Shown one piece after another: positions 22,650 to 24,731 of a DNA stretch of 32,906 nucleotides; positions within the stretch are counted from its first letter, which is position 1; the number at the start of each line of letters is the position of its first letter. Source of the DNA: Actinomycetes bacterium. GTDB taxonomy: Bacteria; Actinomycetota; Thermoleophilia; Gaiellales; Gaiellaceae. The stretch covers positions 1-32,906 of the forward strand of contig JAHEXT010000008.1 in assembly GCA_023251945.1 (NCBI GenBank), in the 5' to 3' direction. The notes under the pieces are model-generated. The model made no database searches and had not been told where the DNA came from. It saw only the letters and a list, made by a program, of their open reading frames with translations. Position numbers and translations under genes: made by a program.

Positions 22650-22854
22650 CTCACGTCCCTGGACGCCTCCGACTCCCGCCTGGCAAAGCCGGGCTCCGCC
22701 GGAGGCTGACGCCGCTCGCGGCAGGATGCGTCGCGCTCGGCGCTTGTCCGTACCTCATGTACTGTCCTGCGCGCCTCGCGCTCGCCTCCTTTGCGAGGGT
22801 TTTGGGGGCCCCAGACAGTGCGAAGCACTTTCTGGGGTTGGGCGCCCCAGGAAC
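22650..22854 (+). repeat. Intergenic region with strong stem-loops between alaS and ruvX
   Basis: 205 nt without a gene. CCCCAGACAGTGC (22809-22821) pairs with GCACTTTCTGGGG (22825-22837) around a GAA loop, 12 pairs and one mismatch. GGGG (22804-22807) and CCCC (22845-22848) can close it further. Upstream, GCCTCCG and CGGAGGC also form a hairpin. It ends only 17 nt before the ruvX ATG and lacks a U-tract, so it is not a clear terminator. It looks like a REP-like palindromic element or an RNA processing site. Confidence 0.4.
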
Positions 22855-23250
22855 ATGAGAGTCATCGCTTTGGATTACGGCGCCGCCCGGACCGGCGTCG
22901 CCGTCTCGGACGCGACGGGAACGATCGCGCGGCCGCTCGAGGTGGTCGAGCGAGCGGCGACCCAGTCCGGTCTCGGGCGAATCCGGGAGATCGTGCGCGA
23001 CCAGGAAGCCGAACGCGTGGTGGTGGGCCTGCCGCTGACGCTCCGGGGCGAGCGAGGCCGGCAGGCGCGGGAGACCGACGAGTTCGTCCGCACGCTTCGG
23101 CAGGCTCTCGACGTTCCGGTGGAGACGTACGACGAGCGCTTCACGACGACGCTCGCGGCGAGCGGGCCGGGCGACGCGCCCGAGGACGCCCGCGCCGCGG
23201 CGCATCTCCTGGAGAGCTACCTCGCATGGACGAGCGCGCACCGGAAGTAG
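22855..23250 (+). CDS. ruvX: YqgF/RuvX-family nuclease (pre-16S rRNA or Holliday junction)
   Basis: 131 residues from ATG 22855. RNase H-like fold: ALDYGAARTGVAVSD with the first catalytic Asp, VVVGLPLTLRGE, ETYDERFTTTLA with the second acidic pair, and a C-terminal DARAAAHLLESYL with the last Asp. Normal length for the family. YqgF proteins mature 16S rRNA 5' ends in E. coli and have been proposed as Holliday junction resolvases; the sequence cannot distinguish the two. Only a weak AGGA lies close to the start; the frame is open upstream, but the family N-terminus begins here. The end overlaps mltG by 25 nt. Confidence 0.93.
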   Translation: MRVIALDYGAARTGVAVSDATGTIARPLEVVERAATQSGLGRIREIVRDQEAERVVVGLPLTLRGERGRQARETDEFVRTLRQALDVPVETYDERFTTTLAASGPGDAPEDARAAAHLLESYLAWTSAHRK

Positions 23251-24137
23251 CCCCGACTCCGCGCGGGCCGAGCCGTACGCACATCTGGGCGCGGCGGGCG
23301 GTCGCGGCCCTCGTCGCCGTCGGCGCGCTCGGAGTGGCCGTCTGGGCCGGCGCCTCGCTGGTCAGGGACGAGGACCCGCCGCCGCCGCCGACCGAGACCG
23401 TGCCGCCGCTCGCGCGGCTGCGCATCATCTTCCCCGAGGGATTCACGCGGCGTGAGATGGCAGACCGGGTCGCTGTAGTGCGTGAGATCGCGATCGACAG
23501 GCGCGGGGTCACGCCTCGTCTTACGCGCCAGGCGTACCTGCAGGCGACCTCGAGCGCGAAGCCGCCGGCCGAGTTCCGCAAGGACTGGGCAGGCCGGTCG
23601 ATCGAGGGGTTCCTCTTCCCGGCCACGTACGAGTTCAGCCAGTACACGTCGTCCGCGAAGCTCGTCCGCGACCAGCTTGCCGCCTTCCGGAAGCGGTGGA
23701 GGAAGGTCGACCTGCGGTACTCGAAGTCGAAGAACCTGACCCCGTACGACGTCCTGATCATCGCGTCGATGATCGAGAAGGAGATCGTTGCGCCAGAGGA
23801 GCGGCGGCTCGTCGCCGCGGTCGTCTACAACCGGCTACGGCGCGGGATGCCGCTCCAGATCGACGCGACGATCCGCTACGGGCGGAACGTGCCCGGGACG
23901 AAGCCGCTCAAGCAGTCGGACCTCGAGAGCAACGACCCGTACAACACGCGCAAGCGGCTCGGGCTGCCGCCGACCCCGATCGCGAACCCGGGGCTCGCGT
24001 CGAGCCAGGCGGCGGCGCATCCTGCGCGGGTCGACTACCTCTTCTTCGTCCGCAAGCCGGACGGGGTGCACCACTACTTCACGGCGAGCGAGTCGGAGTT
24101 CTTCCGCAAGAAGTGCGAGTACGGCTTCGGCTGCTGA
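23226..24137 (+). CDS. mltG: Endolytic murein transglycosylase MltG
   Basis: 303 residues from ATG 23226, overlapping the end of ruvX. A cytoplasmic N-terminus with one membrane helix (AVAALVAVGALGVAVWAGASL, about 20-40), a proline-rich linker, a LysM-like region and the YceG catalytic domain. The catalytic glutamate is in IIASMIEKE. Further motifs are AAVVYNRLRRGMPLQID, YNTRKRLGLPPTPIANPG and HYFTASESEF. It cleaves nascent glycan strands at the membrane and ends peptidoglycan polymerisation. aroE, which often follows mltG in actinobacteria, is absent here, and the order changes to non-coding DNA and unknown genes. Confidence 0.95.
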   Translation: MDERAPEVAPTPRGPSRTHIWARRAVAALVAVGALGVAVWAGASLVRDEDPPPPPTETVPPLARLRIIFPEGFTRREMADRVAVVREIAIDRRGVTPRLTRQAYLQATSSAKPPAEFRKDWAGRSIEGFLFPATYEFSQYTSSAKLVRDQLAAFRKRWRKVDLRYSKSKNLTPYDVLIIASMIEKEIVAPEERRLVAAVVYNRLRRGMPLQIDATIRYGRNVPGTKPLKQSDLESNDPYNTRKRLGLPPTPIANPGLASSQAAAHPARVDYLFFVRKPDGVHHYFTASESEFFRKKCEYGFGC

Positions 24138-24168
24138 CTTTCCTCCGGACACGTCCGAAAGAGCGCGT

Positions 24169-24196
24169 TTCGCACTCGCATCGACGCAACTACCGT
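24169..24196 (+). promoter_or_regulatory. Promoter of the tRNA-like gene (TTCGCA-16-TACCGT)
   Basis: -35-like TTCGCA (24169-24174) and -10 TACCGT (24191-24196) with a 16 nt spacer; predicted start near 24203, three bases before the first acceptor base of the tRNA-like structure. Confidence 0.4.
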
Positions 24197-24246
24197 CGCG
24201 GGTGCGGAGAGTGAAGGCGCGTGGTGCGCCACCCGATTGACAGTCG
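24195..24246. repeat. Inverted repeat, left arm (within tRNA-like gene)
   Basis: 24232-24246 (CCCGATTGACAGTCG) is the exact reverse complement of 24398-24412, and 24195-24210 (GTCGCGGGTGCGGAGA) matches the reverse complement of 24430-24445 in 14 of 16 positions, in the same order. The two arms thus form an imperfect inverted pair of about 50 bp spaced by about 150 bp. Confidence 0.75.
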
Positions 24247-24292
24247 AGGTGTCCGGTTGCCACCGGATCCGGTTCGAGTCCGGCGCCCTCCG
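24206..24292 (+). tRNA. Class II tRNA-like gene, 8/4 acceptor branch, anticodon loop reads GAC
   Basis: The B-box GGTTCGAGTCC (24271-24281) is perfect. Acceptor GGAGAGTG (24206-24213) pairs with CGCCCTCC (24284-24291), seven of eight positions with one A-C mismatch and one G-U; discriminator G24292; CCA not encoded. D-arm GGCGC-GTGGT-GCGCC (24216-24230), anticodon arm ACCCGA-TTGACAG-TCGAGGT (24231-24250, one bulged A), long variable arm TCCGG-TTGCCA-CCGGA (24252-24267), and a four-pair T stem CCGG/CCGG (24269-24272, 24280-24283). The long variable arm, G73 and GGAGAG end are serine/selenocysteine-like, but the loop TTGACAG gives anticodon GAC, a valine anticodon never found on class II tRNAs. 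It may be a Sec-like or allo-tRNA-like species, or a tRNA-derived element. Confidence 0.5.
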
Positions 24293-24362
24293 CCCAGGCA
24301 TCGCGTCGGCCTTGAGGGTCACGGTGTGGCGACCTGCTGTCAGGCCTTCAGAGCCGGCGCGG

Positions 24363-24392
24363 TTGCCGTCCGCAGGTTGAGTGGGCTATGGT
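24363..24392 (+). promoter_or_regulatory. Possible promoter TTGCCG-18-TATGGT
   Basis: -35-like TTGCCG (24363-24368) and -10 TATGGT (24387-24392). The predicted start near 24399 would give an RNA whose first 14 nt are the complement of the tRNA-like anticodon arm. Confidence 0.4.
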
Positions 24393-24397
24393 GAGAG

Positions 24398-24445
24398 CGA
24401 CTGTCAATCGGGCGCAAGCGGGGTGGCTTTCCCCGCACTCGCGAC
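24398..24445. repeat. Inverted repeat, right arm
   Basis: Partner of 24195-24246. Blocks CGACTGTCAATCGGG (24398-24412) and TCCCCGCACTCGCGAC (24430-24445) are separated by 17 nt here and 21 nt in the left arm; each spacer includes part of a local hairpin. In RNA the two arms could pair over long range and would compete with the tRNA-like fold. Confidence 0.75.
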
Positions 24446-24480
24446 TTCACCTCAGTCGGCCCGCTTCGGCGGGCCGTCGC
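24399..24480 (+). ncRNA. Candidate small RNA of about 80 nt antisense to the tRNA-like anticodon arm
   Basis: Bounded by the TATGGT promoter and the terminator-like hairpin at 24457-24476. The 5' end GACTGTCAATCGGG complements 24232-24245. An internal hairpin GCGGGG/CCCCGC (24418-24423, 24431-24436) follows. CGACTG (24398-24403) can also pair with CAGTCG (24453-24458). No convincing reading frame with a ribosome binding site is seen. The alternative is that this is the 3' half of one longer RNA beginning near 24203. Confidence 0.35.
24457..24476 (+). terminator. Terminator-like hairpin with TTCG tetraloop
   Basis: CGGCCCGC (24457-24464), loop TTCG, GCGGGCCG (24469-24476): eight GC pairs and a stable tetraloop. 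The following TCGCTTGT has only a few T residues, so intrinsic termination is plausible but not certain. Confidence 0.5.
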
Positions 24481-24518
24481 TTGTCGGTGGTAACCGCGTG
24501 ACGTTCGCGTCCTGGGAC

Positions 24519-24546
24519 TTGATTCTCTTGCCTCCGGTGTTAGGGT
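24519..24546 (+). promoter_or_regulatory. Promoter of the membrane-protein operon (TTGATT-16-TAGGGT)
   Basis: -35 TTGATT (24519-24524), 16 nt spacer, -10 TAGGGT (24541-24546), in a locally AT-richer stretch. Predicted start near 24553 gives a leader of about 180 nt, unlike the leaderless genes elsewhere in the window. The leader holds an 11-codon ATG frame (24564-24599) and a GGCCGG/CCGGCC hairpin near 24606-24630, so post-transcriptional control is possible. Confidence 0.5.
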
Positions 24547-24731
24547 CGGCCCGACAGAACGAGATGGGCTCAGTCTGGGTCGAGCTGCCGATCCTGTAGC
24601 CCTCGGCCGGTTCATCGCGTTAGCCGGCCCGAGCAAGCAGGTGCGCCGCAACGATCGCAGCCTGAACGCCTCGCGCTCCAGAGACTGCCTCGACGACTTC
24701 CGCCGGCAACCAGCGTGTGAGGAGGTTCTTC

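Follow-up and report, generated by a model that had tools for sequence, protein, structure and literature searches.

Antisense control by cognate RNA pairs is familiar from type I toxin-antitoxin (TA) systems and plasmid copy-control pairs of the RNAI/RNAII type, which are marked by cognate specificity, loop–loop contacts and fast co-diversification. In T-box riboswitches, stem I is an RNA that reads the anticodon loop of a tRNA by base pairing. To our knowledge, no description exists of a natural system in which a dedicated tRNA has its anticodon masked by a small RNA devoted to it, with both partners co-evolving. Among TA systems, type VIII pairs consist of two RNAs (PMC10767807). Allo-tRNAs with 8/4 and 9/3 layouts (Mukai et al. 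2017) include 8/4 molecules from soil bacteria according to a review (PMC7609411), which further reports that, in E. coli, published allo-tRNAs of the 8/4 build placed serine at a leucine codon and that a TA or transposon function has been suggested for a related group.

Here, we analyzed a 32,906-nt stretch of actinobacterial DNA (the window) carrying a tRNA gene and, downstream of it, an inverted copy of its anticodon arm. Like allo-tRNAs, this tRNA comes from soil bacteria and has an 8-bp acceptor, a 4-bp T stem, a long variable arm, G73 and a non-serine anticodon. In contrast to the allo-tRNAs in the review's account, which come from Clostridia, Proteobacteria and Acidobacteria, those described here belong to Actinomycetota and carry G34 anticodons only. 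They also have a covarying antisense partner, which goes unmentioned in what the review (PMC7609411) says of allo-tRNAs; a literature search for allo-tRNAs and antisense, covering Mukai et al. 2017 via that review, found no description of one.

The arrangement resembles type VIII TA pairs (SdsR-RyeA, CreTA), with a small RNA as putative toxin, a second RNA as putative antitoxin and adjacent genes, whereas here the putative toxin is a tRNA, the antitoxin pairs with its anticodon arm and no Cas proteins take part. The feature by which type VIII is recognized, neighboring RNAs that base-pair in a cognate manner, is present; the module would act like such a pair, although, its toxicity being putative, we do not file it as a member. 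Cognate antisense specificity, loop–loop contacts and fast co-diversification recall type I TA and RNAI/RNAII pairs, but the target is a structured tRNA instead of an mRNA or primer, and the antisense gene lies downstream on the same strand without overlap. As in T-box stem I, an anticodon loop is read by pairing, here also by a trailer stem-loop; unlike in a T-box, no downstream gene is controlled, the whole anticodon arm is covered and each RNA has one dedicated tRNA.

A tRNA gene of 8/4 build in the mltG neighborhood

The element at 24203-24295 fits an 8/4 allo-tRNA in its acceptor branch, variable arm, G73 and non-serine anticodon. The sequence-only reading that drew attention to the locus had spoken of a tRNA-like core; the tRNA assignment holds, while the element is more than a core, namely a near-complete 8/4 allo-tRNA. 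ARAGORN called tRNA-Val(gac) at 24206-24294, and our covariance model R1 scored the gene at 100.8 bits. The 12-bp acceptor branch (8-bp acceptor plus 4-bp T stem) is conserved in alignment A4, and the long serine-type variable arm and G73 in alignments A2 and A4. About ten members, all from other families, encode CCA after G73. The features of the tRNA side are as follows:

24191..24196, + strand: putative -10 box TACCGT of the allo-tRNA, following the TA...T box pattern of the family
24203..24295, + strand: 8/4 allo-tRNA (tRNA-Sec/Ser-like), from ARAGORN, Rfam and model R1
24206-24213 with 24284-24291, + strand: acceptor, 8 bp, read from the sequence, with one A-C mismatch in the window
24211..24216, + strand: acceptor/D junction GUGAAG, complementary to small-RNA CUUCAC, with compensations in a subset only (L011, L018, L044, L055)
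24216-24230, + strand: D arm, from tRNA anatomy
24232..24246, + strand: anticodon-arm segment (nt 27-41) predicted to lie under the small RNA, from the 15-nt exact complement and covariation over 27 loci
24237-24243, + strand: anticodon loop, with anticodon GAC at 24239-24241, from tRNA anatomy
24259..24264, + strand: variable-arm loop segment GCCACC, complementary to GGUGGC of the small-RNA hairpin, with loop–loop complementarity across loci
24269-24283, + strand: T arm, with a 4-bp T stem (24269-24272/24280-24283)
24292, + strand: discriminator G73, from tRNA anatomy
24296..24386, + strand: tRNA 3' trailer with a long stem-loop, from the trailer anti-loop test
24336-24343, + strand: trailer anti-loop GCUGUCAG, a second complement of the anticodon loop

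Of 35 listed tRNA-like loci, 21 have a TA...T box 10-16 nt ahead of the tRNA start, and transcription of the allo-tRNA is predicted to start at about 24203, the tRNA's own 5' end. The best Rfam match, tRNA-Sec (RF01852), shares the long variable arm and extended acceptor, but reached 37.1 bits against a gathering threshold of 47, and the anticodon is GAC, not UCA. We rejected a tRNA-Sec identity on these grounds and on the presence of SelA above cut-off in only 10 of 22 carrier genomes. Relatives have true tRNA-Sec genes elsewhere, separate from the allo-tRNA loci, and members also occur in genomes without detected SelA.

The gene sits between mltG and an unrelated gene. Most relatives whose mltG neighborhood was read (by eye) have an aroE-like gene after mltG, and in the window this neighborhood is interrupted (24138-24716) exactly at the allo-tRNA pair. 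The MltG proteins of the genus (window 22791-24137; L083-L087, L089) terminate in a Cys-rich tail that is conserved as CEYGFGC or closely similar variants. An in-frame TGA in relatives' mltG turned out to be the gene's stop codon.

The inverted anticodon arm exceeds chance

The segment CCCGATTGACAGTCG (24232-24246) recurs as its exact 15-nt reverse complement at 24398-24412. As a chance control, we shuffled the intergenic sequence 24138-24500 60 times with dinucleotides preserved; the longest exact inverted repeat averaged 8 nt and never exceeded 13, placing the 15-nt repeat beyond chance, as the sequence-only reading had supposed. That reading had added a second repeat in register with the first, GTCGCGGGTGCGGAGA (24195-24210) against the reverse complement of 24430-24445. 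Its 14/16 matches are there, but the two repeats are mutually offset by 4 nt, and the second is weak on its own because an inverted match of 14/16 arises in 10% of the shuffles. Nor is it conserved, with 8-11/16 matches in 25 of 26 related loci and 13 in the remaining one. The first repeat thus carries the signal, and the second is window-specific, incidental and outside the system.

A patchy family of tRNA-like loci

A DNA search of 61 genomes recovered paralogous tRNA-likes, among them a second copy in the genome from which the window comes. Model R1 was built from the tRNA part alone, leaving the downstream region unused, and a second covariance model, R2, confirmed its members. The resulting 32 members, mostly from metagenome-assembled genomes, fall into five families of one actinobacterial class. 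Carriers are patchily distributed, at 23 of 399 genomes of the class (E <= 1e-6), and some genomes hold three or four copies (G303, G004). Scanning 397 genomes of the phylum outside the class with R2 yielded no member, the best matches being ordinary tRNA-Ser(GCU). Plasmid and phage collections held no match to the module, and viral-contig scans returned ordinary phage tRNAs only (ARAGORN annotation), apart from L104:10791-10881, a viral-contig locus with 57 bits and, read by eye, no anti-arm. Flanking genes, where identifiable, are diverse and mostly housekeeping, with no shared neighbor gene; no transposase or integrase was seen in the flanks tested.

Several loci depart from this layout. 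At L019, positions 1242-1314 hold a decayed allo-tRNA (3' acceptor strand lost) and a decayed small RNA directly upstream of an intact pair, whose downstream neighbor is a PemK/MazF-type toxin gene. On contig C48 of the window's own genome (L009, ~1700-1780), another small-RNA unit comes after the first terminator, with a -10 box TACACT, anti-arm GGGTGTCAGCCGGTC, hairpin and terminator; it is an orphan antisense RNA, having no partner tRNA among the matches in this 63%-complete genome. Shorter tRNA-likes of 76-77 nt at L021 1501-1577 (G069) and L022 1501-1576 (G015) scored 50-54 bits with R1, were not called by ARAGORN and have a -10-like box in front and no anti-arm; they are possibly a different relic.

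The anti-arm follows the anticodon arm of its own tRNA

Among the 32 members, 27 carry a complement (10-20 nt) of their own anticodon arm 12-140 nt downstream. Since the members were found with a tRNA-only model, this complement is independent evidence. The score of each member's own complement averaged 11.9, whereas 20000 permutations that exchanged downstream regions among members reached 8.5 at most, and 0 of 57 canonical tRNA genes of the same bacterial group reached 10.5. In the 27 duplexes, 93.1% of cells are paired (shuffled 67.0, slid 26-41), 13 of 15 duplex pairs are altered on both sides across loci, and double-change cells number 110 (shuffles 35.5 +/- 5.2). The covariation score of the duplex is 0.773, as opposed to 0.243 +/- 0.023 for shuffled and 0.05-0.21 for slid controls, and none of 500 shuffles attained it. 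The duplex register was chosen for maximum pairing, which tilts the slide control towards structure, a bias from which the permutation and canonical-tRNA tests are free. Two of the checks named in advance, covariance of the duplex and persistence of complementarity in relatives, came out in favor of pairing.

Nucleotide 27 finds a pairing partner in the small RNA at 26 of 27 loci, while only 13 of 32 members form the cloverleaf pair 27:43, indicating that this base is kept for the small RNA and not for the tRNA. Two orthologous sets document the process at individual loci. In set A (L013/L016/L017), which shares kilobases of common flanks, the anticodons are GAU, GAU and GAC (Ile/Val); in set B (L048/L052/L069), likewise with kilobases of common flanks, they are GAA, GAG and GAA (Phe/Leu). 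In both, the anti-arm is altered to match the switched anticodon, which, on this comparison, is compensatory change at fixed loci and not recombination of a mobile end. An anticodon-masking RNA is strongly supported.

The small RNA is unrecognizable in five of the 32 members (L019:1242, L045, L061, L060, L068). L045 and L061 kept the trailer stem-loop without the small RNA, and it is missing in L060 and L068, whose acceptors nevertheless look intact; these four allo-tRNAs are possibly orphans or otherwise regulated. Looking through G303 for a partner that L045 might have in trans gave 2-mismatch matches only.

A putative promoter and further contacts of the small RNA

The anti-arm opens a candidate small-RNA gene with the following features:

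~24397-24480, + strand: small RNA gene, ~100 nt downstream of the tRNA, behind an extended -10-like box
24387..24392, + strand: putative -10 box TATGGT, with GGC before it, following the family box pattern
24398..24412, + strand: anti-arm, exactly complementary to the anticodon arm and predicted to form the small RNA's 5' end
24418..24436, + strand: small-RNA hairpin GCGGGG-UGGCUUU-CCCCGC, a predicted fold with a similar hairpin in most members
24445..24451, + strand: CUUCACC segment, candidate second tRNA contact, from the window cofold and compensations in a subset of relatives
24457..24476, + strand: GC-rich terminator-like hairpin CGGCCCGC-UUCG-GCGGGCCG, from its fold, with a weak T tail in the window

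In 25 of 27 loci, a TA...T box precedes the partner base of nt 38 by 10-17 nt (against a background of 0.0044 per position), and the two positions ahead of the box show the extended -10 pattern (G in 21 and C in 17 of 26). Given the position of this box, transcription of the small RNA would start at the anti-arm. T-rich tails follow the terminator-like hairpin in L014, L048, L052 and L069; on the family pattern, we infer a separate promoter, start and terminator for the small RNA. Within the window, a sigma-70 consensus promoter scan scored nothing, a strict terminator scan found none and Rfam gave no match at gathering threshold. A Yfr1 match at 24418-24477 (19.1 bits, gathering 38) was set aside as a resemblance of two hairpins. 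Together, covariation over 27 loci and promoter-like boxes before the anti-arm lend strong support to the earlier proposal that the anticodon arm is sequestered by pairing, in cis or by a small RNA in trans.

Further contacts support tRNA/small-RNA pairing. In many members, the loop of the variable arm is complementary to that of the small-RNA hairpin (permutation p 2e-5, loops read by hand), with loop pairs such as AAUCA/UGAUU (L014), AGUCA/UGACU (L046) and UAGUG/CACUA (L070), and with sides exchanged between UGGU/ACCA (L051) and ACCA/UGGU (L048). The acceptor/D junction GGUGAA pairs with UUCACC, and L011, L018, L044 and L055 hold compensations. Permutation tests of this second contact and, in unrestricted (unsupervised) form, of the third were not significant, since both sides are conserved; the compensatory cases and hand-read loops are what speaks for these contacts. 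In addition, a long 3' trailer stem-loop in many tRNAs repeats the anti-loop and sometimes the hairpin too (anti-loop test, permutation p 4.5e-4, 23 loci), and it changes along in set B.

Surplus tRNAs for frequent codons

All 32 members have G34, A37 and U or C33, with anticodons GAU, GAC, GAG, GAA or GCC, and their anticodon stems often comprise only 3-4 pairs, which may weaken decoding. The cognate codons GUC, CUC, AUC, UUC and GGC all rank within the 11 commonest of five window genes. For a serine-type tRNA with such anticodons, masking would be an obvious need. These tRNAs are surplus, because G004, with four tRNA-likes, already possesses every canonical tRNA, those for Val-GAC, Ile-GAU and Leu-GAG among them. 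Across the five pairs tested, the small RNA scored 11-16.3 against its own tRNA and at most 9.1 against any canonical tRNA; in the near-complete genome of G004, canonical tRNAs were not supported as targets.

Proposed mechanism and alternatives

The tRNA and small RNA probably form an undescribed, TA-like RNA–RNA control pair. In the mechanism we favor, with a probability of roughly 0.6, a toxic, mis-charged and mistranslating allo-tRNA would be held by a cognate antisense small RNA in a two-RNA module. RNA 1 would be a surplus 8/4 allo-tRNA of serine-type build with another amino acid's anticodon (here GAC, for valine codons). RNA 2 would be a small RNA from its own promoter just downstream, with the anti-arm at its 5' end, a hairpin loop that kisses the tRNA variable loop in many members, a UUCACC-type segment that contacts the acceptor/D junction in a subset and a GC-rich hairpin as its end. 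Binding of RNA 2 would hide the anticodon from the ribosome, and in many members the 3' trailer stem-loop could provide a further cis complement to the anticodon loop. Toxicity would come from misincorporation (of serine, by analogy) at codons used very frequently, with the small RNA as cognate antitoxin, the tRNA being stable and the antisense RNA short-lived.

Sequence comparison supports the anatomy, pairing, covariation, anticodon switching and dispersed multi-copy occurrence. Transcription starts, aminoacylation, toxicity and relative stability we infer, and serine charging and translational activity are presumed by analogy to published allo-tRNAs.

Regulated recoding, with the tRNA serving usefully as a conditional mistranslator or suppressor (induced by stress and acting at common codons) and the small RNA setting its dose without addiction, would have the same anatomy, and is in line with the intact U/C33, G34 and A37, the ARAGORN-recognized cloverleaf of several members and the ability of allo-tRNAs to function in translation (PMC7609411). 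We nevertheless regard it as unlikely: orthologs switch freely between GAU and GAC or GAA and GAG, so that no particular substitution is preserved, which argues instead for an antagonistic pair with drifting or diversifying specificity, and the patchiness (23/399 class genomes) and decayed copies better fit a selfish or antagonistic module.

Still less likely is a non-decoding regulator, that is, a tRNA-like decoy, sponge or processing scaffold titrating a small RNA that has another target. Weak anticodon stems would suit such a role, as would the failure of E. coli enzymes to charge some related acidobacterial allo-tRNAs (PMC7609411), but the anti-arm misfits the canonical tRNAs of the near-complete relative G004, no common neighbor gene exists, and the Y33, G34, A37 loop geometry persists in 32/32 members while stems vary.

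Improbable, too, is one long RNA toggling in cis between cloverleaf and extended hairpin, akin to the switch between two folds envisaged from the sequence. Such a switch could operate where read-through RNA holds both elements, the anti-arm following only 12-25 nt after the tRNA in L009, L018 and L055, and the second anti-loop in trailer stem-loops points the same way; however, spacing ranges over 12-140 nt, and the -10-like box right before the anti-arm in 25/27 loci, needless for a purely cis device, makes two separately promoted RNAs the better model.

Terminal inverted repeats of a mobile element, the main alternative in the sequence-only reading, or a chance palindrome would account for inverted arms, multiple copies and the mltG-aroE synteny break, yet the transposon-end reading is contradicted and excluded by arms that differ among loci and covary, a 5' arm always within a tRNA, diverse flanks without transposase or integrase where tested, orthologs of sets A and B that stay in place, and plasmid, phage and viral collections matching ordinary tRNAs only.

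Returning to the toxic allo-tRNA and its antisense RNA, we consider it about an even bet that these pairs represent a class of RNA-only antagonistic modules: fast-diversifying mis-decoding tRNAs, each silenced by its own co-evolving antisense, with paralogous pairs mutually specific and a possible use in addiction or abortive infection via deliberate mistranslation. Should the tRNA prove toxic, tRNA-driven mistranslation would be a new principle of toxin action and would explain the purpose of some surplus allo-tRNAs, a question open ever since soil sequence data first revealed them. Should it prove non-toxic, the pair would still switch decoding on and off in a tRNA-specific manner and supply orthogonal tRNA/antisense pairs ready for use.
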